In this document: piece by piece, positions 7,638 to 19,032 of the stretch
How positions within the stretch are numbered: the stretch's first letter is position 1
Layout of the letters: each line of letters begins with the position of its first letter
Assembly: GCA_013360195.1 (NCBI GenBank)
Contig: JABWCQ010000010.1
Location: 62,001-126,000 of the forward strand
Direction of reading: 5' to 3'
Source: a bacterium
Lineage (GTDB): Bacteria > Electryoneota > RPQS01
DNA: 64,000 nt
Notes under the pieces: model-generated
Told to the model about the DNA's origin: nothing
The model's database searches: none
The model's input: the letters and a program-made list of their open reading frames with translations, nothing else
Made by a program: the position numbers and the translations under genes

Positions 7638-9308
7638 CTATGCCGTGAGCTTACGATAAAGTGAACGGCGCGGACGATCAAAATTGGAGCCCAGTTCTGT
7701 TCTGCGCTGCTGCTCATAGGCTTCAAAATTGCCTTCAAACCAGCGAACCTTGCCGTTGCCTTCAAATGCCAGAATGTGCGTGCATATGCGGTCCAGAAAG
7801 AAGCGATCGTGACTGATCACCATAACACAACCGTTGAATTCGAGCAGTGCGTTTTCGAGCATTCTAAGAGTGGTGATGTCAAGATCGTTGCTTGGCTCGT
7901 CAAGCAGCAGAAAGTTACCTCCCTTTCGAAGAAGTTTCGCGAGATGTACCCGGTTTCTTTCACCTCCAGAAAGATTACCGACATACTTCTGCTGATCTGA
8001 CCCGCGGAAATTGAACTTGGATACGTAGGCTCGCGACGAAATCTCCTTGCCTCCCATCAGAATTGTGTCCGTTCCACCGGTGATTTCCTCAAAGATCGTC
8101 TTCTTGTCGTCGAGGTCATCCCGCATTTGGTTTACATACTCAAGTACAACGGACGGTCCAAGCCTGATTGTCCCGCTGTCCGGCTGCTCGTGACCGTTGA
8201 TTAAGCGAAATAGAGTGGACTTTCCCGCTCCGTTGGGACCAATTACACCGGTAATACTTCCCGGCGGAATGAAGAGATTCAAGTCTTTAATTAGTGCATT
8301 GTCACCGTAGCTCTTGGATACGCCATTTAATTCCAGTACGACATCTCCAAGGTGCGGACCGGGCGCGATCTGAATCATCATGTTCTGGTCGCTTACTTCG
8401 AAGACTTCCTTTGATCGTTTTTCATACTCCGTCAGGTGCTTATGGCTAAGTTCGAGGCGGTCGCGCTGTGAGAGTTTGATCCAAGCGAGTTCCCGTTTAA
8501 GTGCCGCAAGTTTTGCGGACACCTTTTTGTCCGGCTGCTCCATTTGCTCAATCTTCTGTTCAAGCCAATGTGAATAATTCCCTTCCCACGGTATTCCTCG
8601 TCCTGCATCCAGTTCCAGAATCCATTTCGTAATGTTATCGAGAAAGTAGCGGTCATGGGTCGATATTATCACCGTTCCTTCAAACTCTCGCAATTGCTTC
8701 TCCAGCCAAAGAACTGTCTCAGCATCCAAGTGGTTGGTCGGCTCGTCCAGAAGAAGGATATCAGGTTTTTCAATGAGAGCCTTGCAGAGTGCCACTCGCC
8801 TTCGTTCTCCTCCTGAAATCCGGGAAACCGGCAAGTCTCCGTCAGGCAAGAACAAAGCATCAGACGCAACTTCGACTTGATGTTCCAGGTTCCAGCCGTC
8901 CACCTTGTCGATTTCGTCCTGAAGCTTTTGCATTTTGTCCAGCGCTTTTTCCATGGCATCTCCGTCCATGGTTGCCATGTCTTCGGCAAGCTTATTGTAC
9001 TTTTCTATCAAACTAAGCGTTGGTGCAAAAGCCATTTCCACGTTTTCGCGCACGGTTTTATTCAAATCAAGCTGAGGTTCCTGGGCGACGAGGACTGCCC
9101 GTACTCCTTTAGCAGGCTCAGCAGAGCCTTGAAAATCTTTGTCCAATCCCGCCATAATGCGCAATAGTGTGGATTTGCCCGAACCATTGTCTCCTACCAA
9201 ACCAATCTTTGCACCGGGATAAAACGCAAGATTAATGTCGTCAAGTACTTTTGTCGTGCCATACAACTTGACGAGGTGCTGCATGACGAAGATGTACTGT
9301 GGGGCCAT
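7638..9308 (-). CDS. ettA: Energy-dependent translational throttle protein EttA (ABC-F ATPase)
   Basis: Cytosolic ABC-F protein of 556 residues, the same length as E. coli EttA (555). It has two ATPase cassettes with Walker A GDNGSGKST and GPNGAGKST, signatures SGGERRRVALC and SGGERNRVHLAK, and Walker B LLLDEPTNHLD and LLLDEPSNDLD. Long stretches match EttA, for example the FYPGAKIG, IPWEGNYSHWLEQK and GPHLGDVVLE regions. The family binds the ribosomal E site and gates entry of 70S complexes into elongation according to the ATP/ADP ratio. It is the first gene of a leftward unit with the transglutaminase-like and PAS genes. Confidence 0.95.
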   Translation of the reverse strand: MAPQYIFVMQHLVKLYGTTKVLDDINLAFYPGAKIGLVGDNGSGKSTLLRIMAGLDKDFQGSAEPAKGVRAVLVAQEPQLDLNKTVRENVEMAFAPTLSLIEKYNKLAEDMATMDGDAMEKALDKMQKLQDEIDKVDGWNLEHQVEVASDALFLPDGDLPVSRISGGERRRVALCKALIEKPDILLLDEPTNHLDAETVLWLEKQLREFEGTVIISTHDRYFLDNITKWILELDAGRGIPWEGNYSHWLEQKIEQMEQPDKKVSAKLAALKRELAWIKLSQRDRLELSHKHLTEYEKRSKEVFEVSDQNMMIQIAPGPHLGDVVLELNGVSKSYGDNALIKDLNLFIPPGSITGVIGPNGAGKSTLFRLINGHEQPDSGTIRLGPSVVLEYVNQMRDDLDDKKTIFEEITGGTDTILMGGKEISSRAYVSKFNFRGSDQQKYVGNLSGGERNRVHLAKLLRKGGNFLLLDEPSNDLDITTLRMLENALLEFNGCVMVISHDRFFLDRICTHILAFEGNGKVRWFEGNFEAYEQQRRTELGSNFDRPRRSLYRKLTA

Positions 9309-9513
9309 TTAACTCACAACTCTGAATTCTATTGTTGCTTTTCAAGGGCAATATAGCACATTCGAGCGAATCCTGCACATTACACTTTTCTCACCTATTT
9401 CATAGGTTTTGCTGCCAAGCTACTAACATTTAATGGTTTAGGACTTATCTGCCAACGACTCGTCACGCGAAATGAGGAATAGAGTCGTGCGCGTTCTTCT
9501 GCGTGAGTTTGAA

Positions 9514-9535
9514 AAGGCCGCCCGACGGCGGCCTT
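9514..9535 (-). terminator. Terminator of the fibre operon
   Basis: A 9-bp perfect stem (AAGGCCGCC / GGCGGCCTT) with a 4-nt loop, followed on the minus strand by TTTTC, lies about 20 bp after the stop of the last gene of the leftward surface operon. The rest of 9309-9556 shows no gene. Confidence 0.85.
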
Positions 9536-9556
9536 CTGAGTCCAAGTATCTGGTAT

Positions 9557-10585
9557 TTATCTAATCAGTGTCATTCTACGTGTCATTTGCTCGCCGCCTG
9601 CCGCGATACGGGCAAAATAGTTGCCACTCGCCCAAGTGTCCGCGTTGAGGCTCAGTTCGTGGCTCCCTGCAGGCAGAAAGATGTTCTCGTCTCTTACGAT
9701 TCTCCCAGTGGCGTCAAATACCTGCAAATGAACTGTCGCAGCCTTTGCTATCTGGAACGGAAGGCGAGTTTCTGAATTGAATGGATTCGGATAGTTCTGA
9801 TGTAGATACAGGTTCCGTGGCAACACCCCGACTTGCGGTCCGACCGGCATGGCCTCTTCGTTCATTTCGATGATACCGTAATCGAAATTCGGATCAGTTA
9901 CATCAATGTCCGAATCCACATTTACGACAGCAACGGCGAATTGGTCTACCCAAGCATAGCTCAGAAACTCGGAAGACACCAGCAGCACATCATTCAGATA
10001 TGTTTCGCTGTAATGGTGCGTGGCAAGACGCAAGACGTTAAACTCGCCGAACGGAGTTGACACGGTTCCCCACCCGTCAACAAGAACATGTCCGGAATCC
10101 TTCAGGGTCATTACCATTCCCGGTTCCAATTCCTGCGTTACGCTAATCACCATATCCCAAGTTGATTGATAATTAACCGGCAATGTCATTTCCACAGGTG
10201 CAGGATCATACACACGCACTTCCTCCTCTGAACCGACGCCAAGCATGTAACAGGCATCTTCTACTATACGTTCGTAGAGGTAACTTCCGCTTCCGTCTGC
10301 ATGAATTGCTCTTGTCGCATTCTGAAAGTCCTCCCAGTACGGTGTTTCGCTGGGATCAAGGATTAGGGTGTATTGATCGACTTCCCAATCGTAGTTGCCA
10401 AAACTCCATTGTTGCTCCGCACCGGCCGAACCCACATCGAAAACTGCGCCCGATAGGACCTGATGTGAAATGAATGCCGCACCCGACCCGAGGAAATTGC
10501 TTTGTGAAATAGTTATTTGCGCTGACGTGGGACTAAAGCTCAGCGCAATATTCACAATGACTGCCAAGAAAACCCAGTTCTTCAT
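9557..10585 (-). CDS. Exported protein with type IX-like C-terminal sorting domain
   Basis: A 342-residue protein with a Sec signal peptide (MKNWVFLAVIVNIALSF, cleavage near TSAQ) and strong Shine-Dalgarno AAGGAGA before the ATG at 10585. The middle 200 residues are beta-rich and not recognised. The last 85 residues are a sorting domain: YPNPFNSETRLPF, then HLQVFDATGRIV, then a terminal segment ending RRMTLIR, the pattern used for outer-membrane transport and surface attachment by type IX systems. It is the last gene of the five-gene fibre operon, 10 bp after the preceding gene. Role unknown; surface exposure is inferred. Confidence 0.8.
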   Translation of the reverse strand: MKNWVFLAVIVNIALSFSPTSAQITISQSNFLGSGAAFISHQVLSGAVFDVGSAGAEQQWSFGNYDWEVDQYTLILDPSETPYWEDFQNATRAIHADGSGSYLYERIVEDACYMLGVGSEEEVRVYDPAPVEMTLPVNYQSTWDMVISVTQELEPGMVMTLKDSGHVLVDGWGTVSTPFGEFNVLRLATHHYSETYLNDVLLVSSEFLSYAWVDQFAVAVVNVDSDIDVTDPNFDYGIIEMNEEAMPVGPQVGVLPRNLYLHQNYPNPFNSETRLPFQIAKAATVHLQVFDATGRIVRDENIFLPAGSHELSLNADTWASGNYFARIAAGGEQMTRRMTLIR

Positions 10586-10595
10586 GGATCTCTCC

Positions 10596-11105
10596 TTACT
10601 TGGCGAAGTGTTTTGTCTGAGCACCTCCGCCGAAAGTTGTTGAGCTGTTTACAAGTATGATGTAGTATTGCTGAACAGGCGGACTGCTAAGTACGCCTGT
10701 GTCAGTATAAGTTGTGTCGTTGACAGTGGCAACGAAATTGCTCTGCAGCGGCTGAAATTCGAATGCAGTATCTCTATATATGGAGTAGCTTGCAGCCCCA
10801 GGTATTGCCTCCCACCAGAGTCTTGCGTCGTTTCCAAGCGGCAGAATTACGAGTTCCTGAATTGGTGACAACGGCGAGACAGAGAGCAGCGGGTTAAGGA
10901 AGCCGGCATACAAGACAAAGTTGGTTGACGATTGTGCTCCGACCGGCGTCGGCTGACCGAATGCAGACAAGAGCCGGAAGTTGGCGGATTCTGAAATACC
11001 GCCACCGGCATCCATAACGGACTTAGCGAGCCTGAAATGCTCACTTTGCGGCGGTTGCGCAAGCAGCAGAGCCGGCACAAGCAGGAAGAATAGCGGCTTT
11101 TTCAT
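10596..11105 (-). CDS. Exported fibronectin type III-like small protein
   Basis: A 169-residue protein with a signal peptide (KKPLFFLLVPALLLAQ). Residues 20-75 have a SANFRLLSAFGQ-type motif that recurs in secreted FCB proteins. Residues about 85-160 look like a fibronectin III fold (ARLWWEAIPGAASYSIYRDT, then the TYTDTGV turn). AAAGGA lies 10 nt before the ATG. Its start lies 65 bp inside the 3' end of the first fibre gene in another frame, a larger overlap than is common. It may be an accessory to the fibres, by context only. Confidence 0.7.
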   Translation of the reverse strand: MKKPLFFLLVPALLLAQPPQSEHFRLAKSVMDAGGGISESANFRLLSAFGQPTPVGAQSSTNFVLYAGFLNPLLSVSPLSPIQELVILPLGNDARLWWEAIPGAASYSIYRDTAFEFQPLQSNFVATVNDTTYTDTGVLSSPPVQQYYIILVNSSTTFGGGAQTKHFAK

Positions 11106-13113
11106 AACGTTTGTCCTTTGAAGTAGTTAGTGTGAATCCCGCCTGCAGCGATGTAATCTGTGCCTGCAGTTTGTCGATACTTGCGCGAAGCTCGCGGTTT
11201 TGATTGGCAAGCTCTTGAATTGCGGCGAGCGCCACGCCCGAAGGGTCGAGCATTGAAATGGTCTTGTTGTCTTCACCGAGTGAAAACAAGGCATAAAAAT
11301 CCTGCGCCATCGGCCCGACGTGTTGGATATTCTCGTCTTGCGTCTTGTAACTCCAGCGCTCAATAGGAAGCTCTGTTACCTTGTCGAGAATATCCCTCGT
11401 GTTTACACGACCAAATCGACGCTTGGTGGTGGAATCAGAGAGGGAGGACCATGTTCCACTTCCCGCAGGAAGAGTTGCGCCGACCGTAGTTGACGAAGTG
11501 GCGGTGTAGAATCTGACACCTCCAGGAGCGCGTGCGGTGAAACTATTCGTCGCGAAGGAGTTCGTTGTATCCCCTCCGGAACTCCATACGAAACTCCCGT
11601 TTTGAGCGGCGAATGCGTAGGCACCCGCAGCGAAAGCGACTTCGCCGGTGGCACTGTTATGCTGGCCACCGGGGACAGTCGAGTAATGGCTTGCAGTTCG
11701 ATTATTGTATCCCCCCCCGATTGAGCAATATGACCCTGTGGCTTCGTTGGAATATCCACCGCTGATGTTGGCCCAGTTCGCCATGGTGTAATTCCTTGAC
11801 CCTCCGCCAATCGAACAGTAGGCGGAAACGCTGTTGGAGTCTGCCTCGTTAACCCCGCCTCCGCCCGCGATGACGGAGAAGTTTCCGCGGGCATTGTTGT
11901 AGCGGCCTCCTGCGACCGTCGCGGCGTAGCCGTTAGAGAGGTTTTCATAGCCTCCTCCGACCGTCGCGGCCGTGTTTGAAGCCTCGTTATAGTAGCCGCC
12001 AGCCACTGTGGCTCCGGCGACCGTTGCATCGTTCTGATACCCGCCTCCGACCACTGTGGCGGCGGAAGTGGCACTGTTTTGAAAACCGCCTGCGATGGTG
12101 GCATTTGTTGCGGACGCAACATTGTCATTTCCACCGCCAATTGTGGCGTAAATTCCCGACGAGCTGTTGCTGTATCCGCCGGCAACGGTGGCATAATCGG
12201 ACTGAATAGTGTTGACGAAGCCGCCTGATATCGTTGCGTATTCAGCGTTGTTGATCCAATTGCTCGTGCCTCCGCCGCAGACAGCGCTTTCGCCTTCGAC
12301 ATGATTGCCATGTCCGCCGGCCACGACCACATGCTCCTGCATAACGTAATTGGAGTCACCGCTCAATATGGCCGAGTAGTTGCCGCCGCAATAGTTGGCG
12401 CGTCCGCCGGTTACCACTGCATACTGGCCAAGCGCCCAGTTCGCATAGCCTCCTCCGATAGTGGAGTAGGTTTGTGGAGCTTGATTCGCTCTGCCTCCGA
12501 GAATGGCCGCCCAATTAGCGCTTGCGCGGTTCGAATCCGCAGGGAGCGCACCACCTCCTCCTCCGATGACGGCGTAGCTTCCGGCGGCAAGATTATAGGC
12601 ACCGCCACCAACAGCCGAATAGTGTCCTGTGGCAGAGTTGTTCGCGCCACACACAAAAGCGCTCGCGCCCGAGTTGGAATTTCCAATGCCAATATTGGCT
12701 TTGCCGGAAATATTCACGTCACCCTCGATGTTTCCACCGGTCGCTCCGTCCACGGTACCCACGCGGAAAGCATGCGCCACGGTTTGAAACTGCTCTCGGG
12801 GGATCATTTCAGCGTCTGCTCCAATTGTGATACCGAGCCAGCGGTTTGCCGTGAAGTCGTCGGAGAGTGGCGCAAGTGAACCAAGTGCAACGTTGAAAAG
12901 CCCCTCCGAAACCACGACTGCCGGATGTGTCTCCGACCAAATGAGATCCCCATCAGCAAGTGCGTCATAAATCCCAAAAGAAATTGAAACAATGGTATCC
13001 AGCGGCGCTCCGCCCGCTGACGTTAGATAACCTTGATAGTTGATGGACTGTGGCACTGCCCAGCACGGGGCGACGGCAGAGGCGAGTACAATTGTGATAA
13101 GAAATTTCCACAT
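11041..13113 (-). CDS. Fibre-like surface protein, YadA-head-like repeats plus S74 chaperone domain (paralogue 1)
   Basis: 690 residues. A signal peptide is followed by an N-terminal domain (residues about 22-120: INYQGYLTSAGGAPLDT, then WSETHPAVV, then GLFNVALG) seen in secreted proteins of several phyla. Residues about 140-520 are more than 20 copies of a 14-16-residue repeat of the type GGGxxNxAxGxxAT, like the left-handed beta-roll of trimeric autotransporter heads. From about 559 comes a peptidase S74/tailspike-type chaperone domain (SDSTTKRRF, ERWSYKTQD, VGPMAQDF, GVALAAIQELA) ending in a short coiled coil. S74 domains trimerise and then cleave themselves from phage fibres. No YadA anchor is present. 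AGGAGA precedes the ATG. Translation runs on into the next gene for 65 bp, so the true C-terminus may be shorter. Confidence 0.85.
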   Translation of the reverse strand: MWKFLITIVLASAVAPCWAVPQSINYQGYLTSAGGAPLDTIVSISFGIYDALADGDLIWSETHPAVVVSEGLFNVALGSLAPLSDDFTANRWLGITIGADAEMIPREQFQTVAHAFRVGTVDGATGGNIEGDVNISGKANIGIGNSNSGASAFVCGANNSATGHYSAVGGGAYNLAAGSYAVIGGGGGALPADSNRASANWAAILGGRANQAPQTYSTIGGGYANWALGQYAVVTGGRANYCGGNYSAILSGDSNYVMQEHVVVAGGHGNHVEGESAVCGGGTSNWINNAEYATISGGFVNTIQSDYATVAGGYSNSSSGIYATIGGGNDNVASATNATIAGGFQNSATSAATVVGGGYQNDATVAGATVAGGYYNEASNTAATVGGGYENLSNGYAATVAGGRYNNARGNFSVIAGGGGVNEADSNSVSAYCSIGGGSRNYTMANWANISGGYSNEATGSYCSIGGGYNNRTASHYSTVPGGQHNSATGEVAFAAGAYAFAAQNGSFVWSSGGDTTNSFATNSFTARAPGGVRFYTATSSTTVGATLPAGSGTWSSLSDSTTKRRFGRVNTRDILDKVTELPIERWSYKTQDENIQHVGPMAQDFYALFSLGEDNKTISMLDPSGVALAAIQELANQNRELRASIDKLQAQITSLQAGFTLTTSKDKRYEKAAILPACAGSAACATAAK

Positions 13114-13134
13114 GAATAGATCTCCTATTTGGAG

Positions 13135-15192
13135 TTAGCCTGCTTGTCGCCTGCAAGCAGTGTTTGTATCTGTACCTGAAGTTGCCGATTCTGCTCTTCG
13201 AGCTTTGCGCACCGCTTCGCCAGTTCCTGTATCGCCGCACAGGCTGTCGTCGCCCACGTGGAATGCACTCCAGAAATCCTGCGCCATAGGACCGATGTGC
13301 TCGACCGACGGGTCTTGCGACTTGTAGCTCCATTTCTTGATAGGAAGCGTCAAGACTTTCTCAAGCATGTCCTTCGTGTCCACCAAACGGATGTTCTGTT
13401 TCTTGGTAGAATCAGAGACAGCGTTCCATGCGCTTCCTCCTGAAGGAAGATTGACTCCGGAAGTCTCGGACAAGTTGGTGAAGAAGTAAACACCGCCGGT
13501 CGAGCGAACTGCGAAACAATTCGAGTTGCTTACGATGAAATCAGCATCATTGGCGTCGCTCCAGACGAAGGTGCCGTTGCCACCCGCATACGCGCGGTTT
13601 CCAGCCGCAAAAGAGTAGGCTGCATAAGCACGATTGTTATAGCCACCGGGAACGGTGGCATAGAGCCCGGACGCCCAATTCGATTGACCACCTCCGATTG
13701 TTCCAGCGTAGCCTCCGATAGTATTGCTTATTCCTCCACCAATTGTCGCATAGTTGTTGTTCGCCCAGTTAGACTGACCACCACCCACCACGCACCCAGC
13801 GTATGACGCTGTATTTGCGTACCCACCGGAAATCGTTGCGTCTTGCCCACAGACAATGTTCGCGGCCCCTCCGCCAACGGTGGACGAAAATGCTCCAGTT
13901 GCTTGATTGCCGGAACCTCCGCTGATCGTCGCATAGGTTCCACTCGCGTAGTTGCCTCTTCCGCCCGAAATGACCGACTGCGCACCCGTTGCGGAATTCG
14001 AATCTGAGTGCGTTTGACCGCCGCCGCCGCCAACTACCGCAAATTCGCCACGCGCATGGTTGACAATTCCACCGCCAACCGTTGCCCCAATGCCGGTCGC
14101 GTTGTTATTGCCGCCACCTCCAACGGTTGTATTCCAATTACTGGCCTGGTTATTATTGCCGCCACCGATCACAGACATTTGACCACTCACTGTGTTCAGG
14201 AAGCCTCCTCCAATTGTTGAGTAGTCCGCAATAGATTGGTTGGCGTTGCCGCCGCCAACGGTACTGGCAAACGCGCTTGCGAAATTCAATCGCCCACCAC
14301 CGATCACAGAATTTGAACCGGATGCCGAGTTGGCATCTGCAGAAGATGCGCCGCCGCCGCCGCCGACAAATGAGTAGCTTCCCGATGCCGAATTGTAGTT
14401 TCCGCCTCCTACGAAACCAGTAGTACCGATCGAGTTGTTTGAGCCGCGAAGGTAGCCCATTGAATTGACCCAAGTTCGCGTCGCATCCCATAAAGACGTG
14501 TCACTGTCATTCTGAAGCGGAGCCAGATTGGCTTTCGTAGCGTCCCAAGTCGTCGTGTCTGCATCCGCTTGCAGAGGACCAAGTTGCGAGTTCACCCAAG
14601 TGCGAGTAGCATCCCATGTTATTGTATCGGAATTCGACTGTTTCAACGAGACCTGCACGCTGGTCCAGGCACGCGTTGCGTCGTAGCTGTTCGTATCCGC
14701 GTACTGCTGGCCGGCAACGCTGGCTGTGAACTGTGTTGTTCCGTCCAGAAAACGAATGCCCTCCGCTTGAAGTGTCGTGTCTGTTGAGAGCGGACCCGAA
14801 ATAACACCACCTTTCGCACCATCAACGGAGCTTACTCGATAGGAGTAGGGCACAGAAGACAGGAAGTTCCGTGGAACCATTTCGTCGTCGGCACCAACCG
14901 TGACTCCGAGCCACAGTTGCGGTTGATTGAATATGCCGTCCGGGAGTGGAATGACCTGTCCCAACCGCACATTGAAAAGACCATTTATTGAGGAAACTGC
15001 ACTGCGAGTTTCCGTCCATAACAAGCTTCCGCTTGTGGAATCCGTGTATATCCGGAAAGTCATGCTAACGGTTGTGTCCACAAGGTTTCCGCCGTTGTTC
15101 ACAAGTAGACCTTGGAAGTTAACCTGTTGCGGAATCGCCCAGCAAGGAAATGCAATGACGAGCCAACAGAGCCTGGCAAAAACCTTTAACAT
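13135..15192 (-). CDS. Fibre-like surface protein paralogue 2, C-terminus frameshifted
   Basis: 685 residues with the same plan as its neighbours: signal peptide, VNFQGLL domain, GGGxxNxA beta-roll repeats (about 255-520) and an S74-type domain from about 593 (SDSTKKQNI, KKWSYKSQD, HIGPMAQDF). It alone has a segment at about 165-245 with four WDAT-containing repeats of about 24 residues. After GDDSL the reading frame is wrong: the 3' DNA is identical to that of paralogue 3, where it encodes AAIQELAKRC and a coiled coil, but here it is read in another frame as an Arg-rich tail. Shifting one base restores the coiled coil and a stop at 13125-13127, 11 bp before the next ATG, the same spacing as between paralogues 3 and 2. 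Either the gene is damaged or the assembly is wrong there. Confidence 0.8.
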   Translation of the reverse strand: MLKVFARLCWLVIAFPCWAIPQQVNFQGLLVNNGGNLVDTTVSMTFRIYTDSTSGSLLWTETRSAVSSINGLFNVRLGQVIPLPDGIFNQPQLWLGVTVGADDEMVPRNFLSSVPYSYRVSSVDGAKGGVISGPLSTDTTLQAEGIRFLDGTTQFTASVAGQQYADTNSYDATRAWTSVQVSLKQSNSDTITWDATRTWVNSQLGPLQADADTTTWDATKANLAPLQNDSDTSLWDATRTWVNSMGYLRGSNNSIGTTGFVGGGNYNSASGSYSFVGGGGGASSADANSASGSNSVIGGGRLNFASAFASTVGGGNANQSIADYSTIGGGFLNTVSGQMSVIGGGNNNQASNWNTTVGGGGNNNATGIGATVGGGIVNHARGEFAVVGGGGGQTHSDSNSATGAQSVISGGRGNYASGTYATISGGSGNQATGAFSSTVGGGAANIVCGQDATISGGYANTASYAGCVVGGGQSNWANNNYATIGGGISNTIGGYAGTIGGGQSNWASGLYATVPGGYNNRAYAAYSFAAGNRAYAGGNGTFVWSDANDADFIVSNSNCFAVRSTGGVYFFTNLSETSGVNLPSGGSAWNAVSDSTKKQNIRLVDTKDMLEKVLTLPIKKWSYKSQDPSVEHIGPMAQDFWSAFHVGDDSLCGDTGTGEAVRKARRAESATSGTDTNTACRRQAG
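13140..13240. repeat. 101-bp perfect direct repeat, copy 1 (3' end of paralogue 2)
   Basis: Base-for-base identical to 15219-15319 at the 3' end of paralogue 3, although the genes differ immediately beyond 13240. In paralogue 2 it is out of frame. The identity points to recent gene conversion, duplication of a 3' cassette, or an assembly artefact. Confidence 0.95.
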
Positions 15193-15203
15193 TGCGGTCT
15201 CTC

Positions 15204-17504
15204 CTATTTAGAGTGTGTCTGCTTGTCGCCTGCAAGCAGTGTTTGTATCTGTACCTGAAGTTGCCGATTCTGCTCTTCGAGCTTTGCGCACCGCTTCGCC
15301 AGTTCCTGTATCGCCGCACCGTAGCCGAACAAGGCATGGAACGACTGTGCCATCGGGCCGATATGGGTATTGCTCTCGTCCTGATGTGAATAATTCCACT
15401 CTTCGATCCGCAATTGCGTAATCTTGTCGAGGATTTCTGACGTATTGACGGCCTTGCGATTCGTCTTCTTGGTGCTGTCCGAAAGAACTTCCCACGCCGT
15501 GTCCCCGTTGTCGAGCTTCACTCCGACTGTTCCAGTGGTCGTTGTGGCAATACGCACACCGCCGGATGAACGCAGACTGAATTGATTGCTGGCCGTGGAC
15601 GCAAAGTCAGCGACGGTGTTATCGGCCCATACAAATGAGCCGGTGTGGTTTGCCTTGGCGCGAAAACCCATTGCTGTCGAAAAACTTCCCGTCGCTTCGT
15701 TCCCGACGCCGCCAGGGACAGTCGTACCTGAACCGCTTGCCACGTTCTGGAATCCGCCGCCGACGGTTGCATCTTGATTAGAAGCGGTATTCAGCGATCC
15801 TGCCCCGACAAATGAGCGCAGGCCACTTGCTGTGTTCCCTTGCCCTCCGCCGCAGAATGACTTTTCGCCCGTGCTCGCATTGCTTAGTCCTCCGCAGACA
15901 ACTGATTGCAACCCCTCGGCATTGCCCTTTTGACCACCGCCAACAAAGGAGTAGCTTCCGCGTGCGGAGTTGGAATCCGCCGATACGGATCCGCCACCGC
16001 CGACGACAACTGAGTATTCACCGCGAGCGCGGTTGTTTCTTCCTCCACCTATAAAAGAGTAACTTGAATTCAGAGGACTTGTTGCATCTTCAATGCGGTT
16101 TCCGTCGCCGCCGCCAATCACGGCGTTGTTGCCCGTGATCTTGTTCGAAACTCCTGCGCCGACCATTGAAAAATTACCGGTTACGACGTTCCGTGAGCCC
16201 GCTCCAATGAAAGAGTTAAGTCCATTTATGTAGTTGGAGTCAATGAGTGAACCACCGCCGCCAGCGATGACAGAGTAATTATTGCGAACGCGATTGAATG
16301 CTCCGCCGCAGATTGAGGACTGGATCCCCTCCACAACATTTCCTTGCCCGCCGCCTATGAATGCATCTTGAGACAGTATGGTGTTCTGTTGACCGCCTGC
16401 TATTGCTGCCGCAAAACCTGTCGCTTGATTTGTCCCGCCTCCGCCGACAAAAGCAATGCTGCCGGACGCGGAGTTGTTGAACCCGCCTGATACTGCTGAA
16501 CGCTGACCGCTTGCCGTGTTGCTTTCACCTCCTAGTATCGCAGCCCGGAATTGCGATACAGTGTTTCCACTTCCGCCTCCAATAATCGAGTGCTCGCCAC
16601 TTGCGTTGTTGCCCTGCCCACCGCCGACAATCGAGTATGCGCCTGTTGCGCGGTTGCTCCTTCCGCCGCTGATTGTTGAAGCCGTTCCTGTCGCCAAATT
16701 TGAGTCTCCAGCCAGTGGTCCGCCGCCGCCGGCAATCGTTGCGTACTCACCGAACACCCGGTTACGAGAACCGCCCCCTATCGTTCCACCCGTGCTCGTC
16801 GCAACGTTTTCGTAACCTCCGCCAATAACGTTATAGTTTCCGGATCCGGTAATGTCATTGTGGTAACCTCCACCGATAACATTAGAAGATCCGGCAGAAC
16901 TCATTTCATTTCCATATCCCCCGCCGCAAACACCGCCCGCTGAGTTGACCTCGTTATATATACCTGCGCCGATAAATCCGTAGGTGGCTGTTACAGAGTT
17001 GCCGCTGCCACCGGCAATTGTTGCAGGACTCACAGTTATGACGTGATCGCCACCGACAGCAAAACTTTCATATGAAGGTATCGAGTTCGTGTTGCCAACA
17101 GAGAGGCTGCTATACAAGGTTCCGCCAGTCGCACCATCTACAGTCCCCGTTCGAAATGCGTACGGCACCGTGTGACTCTGAATCATCGGAGACATCGGAA
17201 GGTCAGACCCAACTGTTACCTCCAGTAAAGCAATCCCTGATGCAAAAATGCTGTCGGTAATAAAAACTTCGCTGCCGAGTATCACATTGAAGTAACCGTC
17301 GGATACGGTCACTGCAGGATGTGATTCGGTCCAAATCAGCTCATGCATGAATCCGTAGAACTTGAAAGTCATCGAAACTGTCGTATCCAACGGTGTTCCG
17401 GTTGGATTGGTCAGGTAGCCCTGATAGTTGATATAGAGCGGAACGGCAGATGCGAATGATGCGCTCATCAGTAATGCAAACAAGATTGTCAAGTAGCGTT
17501 TCAT
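15204..17504 (-). CDS. Fibre-like surface protein, YadA-head-like repeats plus S74 domain (paralogue 3)
   Basis: 766 residues from the ATG at 17504, which opens a clean signal peptide (MKRYLTILFALLMSASFASA); the open frame extends 33 codons further upstream. The order is: INYQGYLTNPTGTPLDTT domain, then the longest repeat region of the three (about 130-620, with many GGGxxNxASG units and occasional Asp-rich variants such as GGGGSVSADSNSA), then an S74-type domain from about 675 (SDSTKKTNRK, EEWNYSHQD, HIGPMAQSF) and a coiled-coil end (KLEEQNRQLQVQIQ). Compared with paralogue 1 it lacks the segment around MLDPSGV between MAQ and AAIQELA, but stays in frame. It is the first gene of the operon. 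Confidence 0.88.
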   Translation of the reverse strand: MKRYLTILFALLMSASFASAVPLYINYQGYLTNPTGTPLDTTVSMTFKFYGFMHELIWTESHPAVTVSDGYFNVILGSEVFITDSIFASGIALLEVTVGSDLPMSPMIQSHTVPYAFRTGTVDGATGGTLYSSLSVGNTNSIPSYESFAVGGDHVITVSPATIAGGSGNSVTATYGFIGAGIYNEVNSAGGVCGGGYGNEMSSAGSSNVIGGGYHNDITGSGNYNVIGGGYENVATSTGGTIGGGSRNRVFGEYATIAGGGGPLAGDSNLATGTASTISGGRSNRATGAYSIVGGGQGNNASGEHSIIGGGSGNTVSQFRAAILGGESNTASGQRSAVSGGFNNSASGSIAFVGGGGTNQATGFAAAIAGGQQNTILSQDAFIGGGQGNVVEGIQSSICGGAFNRVRNNYSVIAGGGGSLIDSNYINGLNSFIGAGSRNVVTGNFSMVGAGVSNKITGNNAVIGGGDGNRIEDATSPLNSSYSFIGGGRNNRARGEYSVVVGGGGSVSADSNSARGSYSFVGGGQKGNAEGLQSVVCGGLSNASTGEKSFCGGGQGNTASGLRSFVGAGSLNTASNQDATVGGGFQNVASGSGTTVPGGVGNEATGSFSTAMGFRAKANHTGSFVWADNTVADFASTASNQFSLRSSGGVRIATTTTGTVGVKLDNGDTAWEVLSDSTKKTNRKAVNTSEILDKITQLRIEEWNYSHQDESNTHIGPMAQSFHALFGYGAAIQELAKRCAKLEEQNRQLQVQIQTLLAGDKQTHSK
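15219..15319. repeat. 101-bp perfect direct repeat, copy 2 (3' end of paralogue 3)
   Basis: Identical to 13140-13240. Here the sequence is in frame and encodes the coiled-coil end after the S74 domain, so this copy is probably the source. Confidence 0.95.
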
Positions 17505-18060
17505 CGTGGAAGTCCTTGCAGAAAAAATTGGAAAGGATATATCATCGTCTTGCTGATTTAGTGTGTAATCATTCTGCCATAACCTAATGGCAAAGCACTT
17601 CAATTACGCAAGTGCAATTTGTGTTGGTGGGTCTGCAACAGTCAAAAACAAACGAGCGAGTCCTCACCGATGCCGGCGACGACTCGCTCGTACTCCATCC
17701 CCTGCCGAAGTCTGAATCTCCGGCAAAAAAGATTCTTGTATTTAATGTATCACTATCGATAACGAGAGTCAATAAACTGTTTCAATGCACCAGTGACTAT
17801 GTCACTTGTCGTGCACATCGAGTGGTTGCAATTATGCACAGATGCTATCGAATGCACTTTGCATGCTCCAATGCACATTTAAGCTAATCCTCCATCGCGT
17901 TTGCAACGTGCCCCGTCAAGGGTGCATCTGCATGCCAAGCGGAACCAACCTGATCATACACCGATCTCGGGGGTTCCGCCTGGCAATGCCGCTGGTCTAT
18001 TACAGGTTGAAAGTTTCCATTGGATATCGTATTTTCTTGTAAACAACTTTCGAGGGAATT
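17505..18060. other. Non-coding divergent region with inverted repeat and ATGCAC cluster
   Basis: No credible gene lies here, between the fibre operon and the rightward DUF4412-like gene. It contains an 11-bp inverted repeat ACGAGCGAGTC / GACTCGCTCGT (17652-17662 and 17681-17691) without a T-tract. Five ATGCAC/GTGCAC words lie within 92 bp (17785, 17811, 17834, 17852, 17871). Both look like possible regulator-binding sites for the divergent promoters. Confidence 0.5.
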
Positions 18061-19032
18061 ATGCATTTACATTTGGTATTACTTATCACACTGGGATTGG
18101 CGTTCTCGGCACAGGCTGACGTCAAAAGGGAGTACCGGTCGCAATCTACCGTCGGCAAACTCGGCACGAACCAGACGACGGGTACGGATTTCTACAGTTC
18201 TGACAAGCACTGTGGCGAATCCATAGTTCAATGGACTGCCGGTTTCATGAAGACAGCCACGCGCGGCAAGCCTGTTGAGGGAGCTACCATCACTCGACTT
18301 GACAAGGATTCTGTCTTCACTGTCAACCATTCGAAGGAAACGTACAGTGCTATGTCACTGGCCGAGTTTCGCGAGCAACTCAAAAAGGGTATGATTGACA
18401 CTGAGGGTGCCGAGCCTGAAGAAGAGGAGGATACGACCGCAGCACCACCTGAGCAATATGAATGGACTATTGAAGACATATCCGACACCGACCCCAAAGT
18501 TATCAATGGCTGGACTTGCCGGAACGCACATGTTGTGGCAACCGGGGTCAACAAGCAGGATTCACTGGACAGAGTTATCATCACTCTTAATATCTGGAAC
18601 AGCGAAGATGTACCAGGCGCGGCGGAGATTGCCGAGTATTCCAAGAACTATCTGGCAGCCCTTGGGCTTGACGAAATTGCGATGACAGAAGGCCTCATGT
18701 CAGCAGCGTTCCTTTATGCGGCAAAAATAGATGAGGTGCTTGACAAGGCCAAAAATGCGCGTGGCGAGTCCGTCGAAAGCCTTATTAAGGTCGAGCATAA
18801 TCGTCGTAAGGGGAAGAGCCTTGGGCAAGTAGCCAAGGAAGGAGCAGCGGAAGAGCTTGCAAAGAAGGTTCCGTTCGGTCTTGGCAAGAAGAAGAAAGCG
18901 GAAGAGAGGCCGGAATACATCCTGAAAACCGTTTTCAGTTCAGAACGCACGCTTGTAAGTGCAGCCGTTGAGGCCGTCGATCCAGCTACGTTTGAGGTTC
19001 CGGCAAATTACAAATTGAAAAAACAGGATTGA
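18061..19032 (+). CDS. Exported DUF4412-like protein
   Basis: 323 residues with a signal peptide ending at AQAD. Residues 20-125 match the style of DUF4412 proteins: a TITRLDKDSVFTVNHSKETY segment and a following SLAEFREQL, which in this family describe a protein usually found in FCB and Acidobacteria with no known function. A Glu-rich linker (residues about 117-125) separates it from a domain with one Cys pair region (GWTCRNAHV) at about 155. Lys-rich stretches occur near 265-285. It is 7 bp before the DHH phosphoesterase gene, so probably cotranscribed. The family link is moderate. Confidence 0.65.
   Translation: MHLHLVLLITLGLAFSAQADVKREYRSQSTVGKLGTNQTTGTDFYSSDKHCGESIVQWTAGFMKTATRGKPVEGATITRLDKDSVFTVNHSKETYSAMSLAEFREQLKKGMIDTEGAEPEEEEDTTAAPPEQYEWTIEDISDTDPKVINGWTCRNAHVVATGVNKQDSLDRVIITLNIWNSEDVPGAAEIAEYSKNYLAALGLDEIAMTEGLMSAAFLYAAKIDEVLDKAKNARGESVESLIKVEHNRRKGKSLGQVAKEGAAEELAKKVPFGLGKKKKAEERPEYILKTVFSSERTLVSAAVEAVDPATFEVPANYKLKKQD

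Follow-up and report, generated by a model that had tools for sequence, protein, structure and literature searches.

MAT-like S74 fibre genes and an adjoining GQ-domain gene in a genome of the Electryoneota

The fibre triplet and its neighbours

The window, a stretch of 64,000 nucleotides, carries three adjacent paralogous genes for fibre-like proteins, g3, g2 and g1. All three point the same way on the minus strand, separated by short gaps, and are followed by a gene of 169 aa and then by a gene for a secreted protein with a sorting domain of the type IX secretion system (T9SS). The triplet had been recognised in a sequence-only reading of this DNA, whose division of the proteins into a Sec-type leader, a YadA-like beta-roll and an S74 domain proved correct for all three genes. 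Each fibre has a hydrophobic N-terminal leader, an INYQG-type domain (the N domain), a roll of GGGxxN repeats and an S74 domain; a C-terminal helix is present in g1 and g3. The features of the run are:

15204..17504, minus strand: g3, MAT-like S74 fibre, 766 aa, ATG at 17504
About 17130-17444, minus strand: g3 N domain (Bdello_MAT_N, 31.5 bits)
About 15525-17087, minus strand: g3 beta-roll
15327-15482, minus strand: g3 S74 domain, dyad Ser675/Lys680; a C-terminal coil runs on to the stop
15200..15319, minus strand: g3 3' tail, in-frame counterpart of the g2 tail, encoding a coiled coil
13135..15192, minus strand: g2, MAT-like S74 fibre, 685 aa, C-terminal coil lost via a frameshift
About 14815-15135, minus strand: g2 N domain
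13261-13416, minus strand: g2 S74 domain, dyad Ser593/Lys598
13121..13240, minus strand: g2 3' tail, 97% identical to the g3 tail and read in another frame
11041..13113, minus strand: g1, MAT-like S74 fibre, 690 aa, roll matched to the UspA1 head and modelled
About 12739-13056, minus strand: g1 N domain
About 11494-12666, minus strand: g1 beta-roll
11284-11439, minus strand: g1 S74 domain, dyad Ser559/Lys564
11092-11244, minus strand: g1 C-terminal helix
10596..11105, minus strand: partner gene, 169 aa, with leader, GQ domain and FN3-like tail
About 10884-11105, minus strand: partner leader and GQ domain
10644-10877, minus strand: partner FN3-like C-terminal tail
9557..10624, minus strand: final gene of the run, encoding a secreted protein of 355 aa, likely start ATG near 10585
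9572-9793, minus strand: type A T9SS sorting domain of the last gene (PF18962, 35.5 bits)

The 3' end of g1 overlaps the partner gene (10596-11105) by 65 bases. According to that reading the fibres show no visible membrane anchor or sorting tail, and this was borne out: Pfam gave no match to the C-terminal YadA membrane anchor in the three fibres at E<=1, and the sorting domain (PF18962/TIGR04183) was not found on them in Pfam and NCBIfam scans. The last gene of the run does carry such a domain, as had also been claimed; a passage in PMC9143113 describes type A sorting-domain proteins as anchored to surface LPS. The genome encodes the T9SS translocon SprA and contains at least 150 sorting-domain matches. 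The 355-aa T9SS gene was considered as a member of the core module and was dropped, as it is not conserved at other fibre loci.

Just upstream of g3 and on its strand, at about 17600-17700 of the window, a GC-rich inverted repeat (CGAGCGAGTC...GACTCGCTCG) is followed by a T-rich run, forming a possible leader or attenuator. The terminator scan did not pick up this repeat, the promoter and terminator scans gave results at chance level, and Rfam had no match within 9000-18300.

The 3' ends of g2 and g3 share a tail of 120 bp with 97% identity, which g2 reads out of frame, so that its coiled coil is lost. The homogenised tail appears recent and could reflect either conversion between the paralogues or a slip in assembly. 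Interrupted fibre copies are also present in three related arrays, one copy in each, through a frameshift or a TAG stop (L024 6250-6620; L029 13150-13480; L041 5000-5350).

A search of the whole genome found four S74 genes, comprising the triplet and one gene on contig 15; downstream of this fourth gene lies a paralogue that closely resembles the 169-aa gene. S74 genes are present in 10 of the 11 sampled genomes of the family (the window's own genome counted), at one to six per genome and often in tandem, while none was found in the other sampled families of the phylum. Relatives with a name are MAGs that go under candidate division KSB1, Calditrichaeota or bacterium. Across the family the paralogues are 39-49% identical to g1 and are therefore old.

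S74 domain, beta-roll and N domain

The S74 model PF13884 matched all three fibres at 33.2, 42.8 and 32.8 bits, above its curated gathering score of 22 bits, and the Ser-x4-Lys dyad of the Peptidase_S74/endosialidase chaperone is intact with its spacing kept (SDSTKK/SDSTTK). The fibres are thus probably self-cutting; we infer S74 self-cleavage from this conserved dyad together with a tested homologue, Bdellovibrio Bd3182, which cleaves itself at the serine of SDxxxK (PMC10769870). Among the relatives, several S74 domains are natural variants with Cys where the nucleophilic Ser is expected (L028 6608-8419; L029 7004-9181; L031 6395-8062; L033 1696-3960; L034 169-2361); a Lys five residues after the Cys is obvious in each of these except L031.

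The beta-roll has a repeat period of 15 residues and matches the UspA1 head (3pr7) by sequence with E=2.1e-18. In a monomer model, residues 200-410 form beta-strands at a pLDDT of about 83-95, and the repeat region is therefore not disordered. The two outcomes named beforehand as speaking against the sequence-only reading, an S74 domain without a match and repeats predicted to be disordered, were thus not encountered; the head and stalk models that it had expected to hit, PF05658/PF05662, gave no match in the three fibres at E<=1. The S74 region itself was modelled with low confidence (pLDDT about 30-60), as would be expected for an obligate trimer modelled as a monomer from a 12-sequence alignment. 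Structure searches with the fibre monomer returned nothing below 1e-3 from the PDB, and phage and giant-virus beta-roll or S74 proteins from BFVD.

The fibres had been interpreted as lying between known kinds, a claim that the literature refutes: Sec-exported S74 fibres were described in 2024 as the mosaic adhesive trimer (MAT) superfamily of Bdellovibrio (PMC10769870). Since the kind was already known, the reading of the fibres as a new hybrid holds only in part. MAT proteins consist of a signal peptide, an N domain and a trimeric fibre, with an S74 end in 13 of 21 members; they are displayed on the Bdellovibrio surface, where they are used to recognise prey (PMC10769870), and surface display together with binding to glycans on cell surfaces characterises the superfamily. 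The N domain matches Bdello_MAT_N (NF053851) over the first ~78 of its 162 positions at 28-35 bits (E about 1e-6 to 1e-8), below the curated cut-off of 60 bits, and strict MAT membership is therefore not claimed; the triplet is best described as MAT-like. When 13 diverse N domains were scanned against NCBIfam, 10 matched Bdello_MAT_N and no other family, in every case with a score under the curated cut-off. The N domain had no sequence match in the PDB, and one query run against 50,697 phage records did not find it there. MAT-related N domains were detected in 71 of 386 sampled genomes belonging to many families, so such fibres are probably far commoner than predators.

The GQ domain and its pairing with fibre genes

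The surface element bound by the MAT N domain is left open in PMC10769870, in agreement with the sequence-only reading, which had treated the attachment route of the fibres as an open question. The small gene at 10596-11105, overlooked in that reading, is the gene most relevant to this question and merits follow-up. The N-terminal part of its product contains the GQ domain, of ~60 residues, which has no Pfam model and no PDB sequence match; an AlphaFold model of the partner reached a pLDDT of only 38.6. The sorting domain PF18962/TIGR04183 was not found in this protein, which has the FN3-like tail instead.

Throughout the family, the 169-aa partner gene usually comes after the fibre genes, whether there is one of these or an array of several, and within the window's order the complete partner occurs at MAT-type loci. 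When the two halves were searched separately across the phylum, the N-terminal half was found at fibre loci, apart from a copy on contig 223 of genome G010, which starts so close to the contig end that its setting cannot be read, and one weak match in another family; the FN3-like half was often seen at the C-terminal end of other proteins. In G006 (L032) and G010 (L137), both from the window's own family, the GQ domain is joined to a T9SS sorting domain in place of the FN3-like tail, a swap on the same domain that suggests the two tails do the same job.

MAT-type N domains were sought in 386 genomes, 60 loci were fetched, and an iterative profile search over them revealed the GQ domain beside fibres in many other lineages. 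In these loci, the distance to a fibre gene, on whichever side, is at most 150 nt for 48 of 55 GQ genes, and the tails of the 55 partners are T9SS sorting domains (24), FN3-like domains (19) or others, including dockerins. Because the fetched loci had been chosen for the fibre, the pairing test was redone genome-wide, with each domain searched independently in 17 genomes. Here 32 of 33 GQ genes share their strand with a MAT-type N domain no more than 5 kb away, against 0.39 such neighbours expected from the density of hits; 16 of the 33 had been in the training set of the GQ profile, and 16 of the 17 outside it also adjoin a MAT_N gene. GQ genes are present in all 13 genomes with MAT-type genes and in none of the four without. 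The converse is weaker, as a GQ gene was detected within 9 kb for 40 of the 71 MAT_N genes in these genomes and none was detected within that distance for the other 31; since the profile derives from members linked to fibres, it could miss GQ domains of a different type at other places in the genomes. The fibre may stand upstream or downstream of the GQ gene, and this variable order favours selection acting on the pair over a single inherited arrangement. No ORF containing both GQ and MAT_N was found. When profiles of the family GQ domain and of six divergent T9SS partners were compared directly, no significant match emerged; three of the six partners were linked to the domain via intermediates and the other three were not recovered. 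At the level of gene neighbourhoods, these counts show that GQ and fibre genes are paired. No report of the pairing was found in the open-licence literature, and the GQ gene looks to be a new part of the locus.

Two further observations concern the tails. GQ partners with a type I dockerin lie beside MAT-type fibres at L195 1480-1968 and L196 1635-2546, in a genome of 5 Mb on a single contig, where 23 matches to MAT-type N domains were found. In the window's genome, 30 proteins (L100-L129) were inspected, and nearly all have an FN3-like domain of ~78 residues at their very C-terminus or close to it; the NPFN motif of T9SS sorting domains is absent from all 30. The FN3-like domain may serve in sorting or attachment from the C-terminus without having been recognised as such.

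A model for fibre display and its relation to known systems

The data presented above have led us to propose a model, which we judge to have about an even chance of being right, whereby the locus encodes MAT-type adhesive surface fibres along with a dedicated partner. Each fibre chain would be exported by Sec, after which the S74 domain would drive trimerisation of the beta-roll shaft and then sever itself ahead of its serine, so that the mature fibre would consist of N domain and shaft. The N domain, at the cell, would bind the GQ domain of the partner, and the C-terminal module of the partner would take the complex to, or hold it on, the outside; this module would be the FN3-like tail here and, in other lineages, a T9SS sorting domain or a dockerin. 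One partner would serve several paralogous fibres, which together would offer a range of binding specificities. We infer the trimerisation, the docking of N domain and GQ domain, and the export or anchoring through the tail; the small partner may be what holds the fibres on the cell surface. More tentatively, and with somewhat less than even confidence, GQ may be a docking partner for MAT-type N domains in general, across bacterial phyla, its tail being swapped to suit the surface machinery of each lineage so that self-trimming trimers are carried or held through it.

The same partner could instead be an export factor that carries the folded trimer across the outer membrane, via the T9SS pore where one is present, with the fibre afterwards released or held by something else. 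That many partners bear T9SS sorting domains while the fibres themselves have none, in a genome with SprA, fits such a role, but SprA is the only T9SS component examined, some partners bear dockerins or other tails without a sorting domain, and Bdellovibrio MATs reach the surface with no partner described (PMC10769870); we consider it unlikely. Fibres and GQ protein might also be co-regulated surface proteins that never touch, such as separate adhesins for the same target. Adjacency alone cannot prove contact, and some GQ partners bear long extra domains, for example a beta-helix; the recurrence of the pair in many lineages, whichever gene comes first and with varied partner tails, nevertheless exceeds what is seen for an ordinary operon neighbour and makes this explanation improbable. 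A domesticated or decaying prophage tail-fibre remnant, already disfavoured, is very improbable despite the phage relatives of the S74 domain and beta-roll, the frameshift in g2 and the related arrays with one broken copy, given the Sec-type leader, an N domain not found with one query in 50,697 phage records, multiple copies conserved in 10 of 11 family genomes and a conserved bacterial partner gene.

The GQ protein is a concrete candidate for the attachment or export step in a system whose anchoring on the cell PMC10769870 leaves open. Where present, the GQ gene is almost always beside a fibre gene, which provides a handle for finding and classifying such fibres in uncultured bacteria, and the GQ partners connect phage-like fibres that probably trim themselves with the T9SS.

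Among the closest known systems is the S74 subgroup of MAT proteins (e.g. Bd3182; PMC10769870), which shares with the window fibres the signal peptide, an N domain of about 130 residues, a trimeric beta fibre (the trimer being predicted here), a C-terminal S74 domain with SDxxxK and many paralogues per genome. The window fibres differ in their shaft, a long UspA1/YadA-like roll of 15-residue repeats, in an N domain scoring below the NCBIfam cut-off, in a host lineage that carries T9SS and in the adjoining GQ-domain partner gene, PMC10769870 describing no partner for Bdellovibrio. The only NCBIfam relative of GQ is the N-terminal part of PamT (NF058579), by name a CPR pilus protein, which matches GQ in 12 of 30 partners (best 1.6e-7), far below the full-length cut-off. 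Trimeric autotransporter adhesins (UspA1, YadA; type Vc) share the head beta-roll repeats, but the window fibres have no YadA membrane anchor and end in S74. With phage S74 tail fibres (phrog_1980; endosialidase family) they share a beta-roll and S74 stretch that aligns to phrog_1980 (4.2e-6), and the C-terminal S74 regions of phages Itty13 and PEp14 are 36-38% identical to theirs; in contrast to these phage proteins, the window fibres have a cellular Sec leader.
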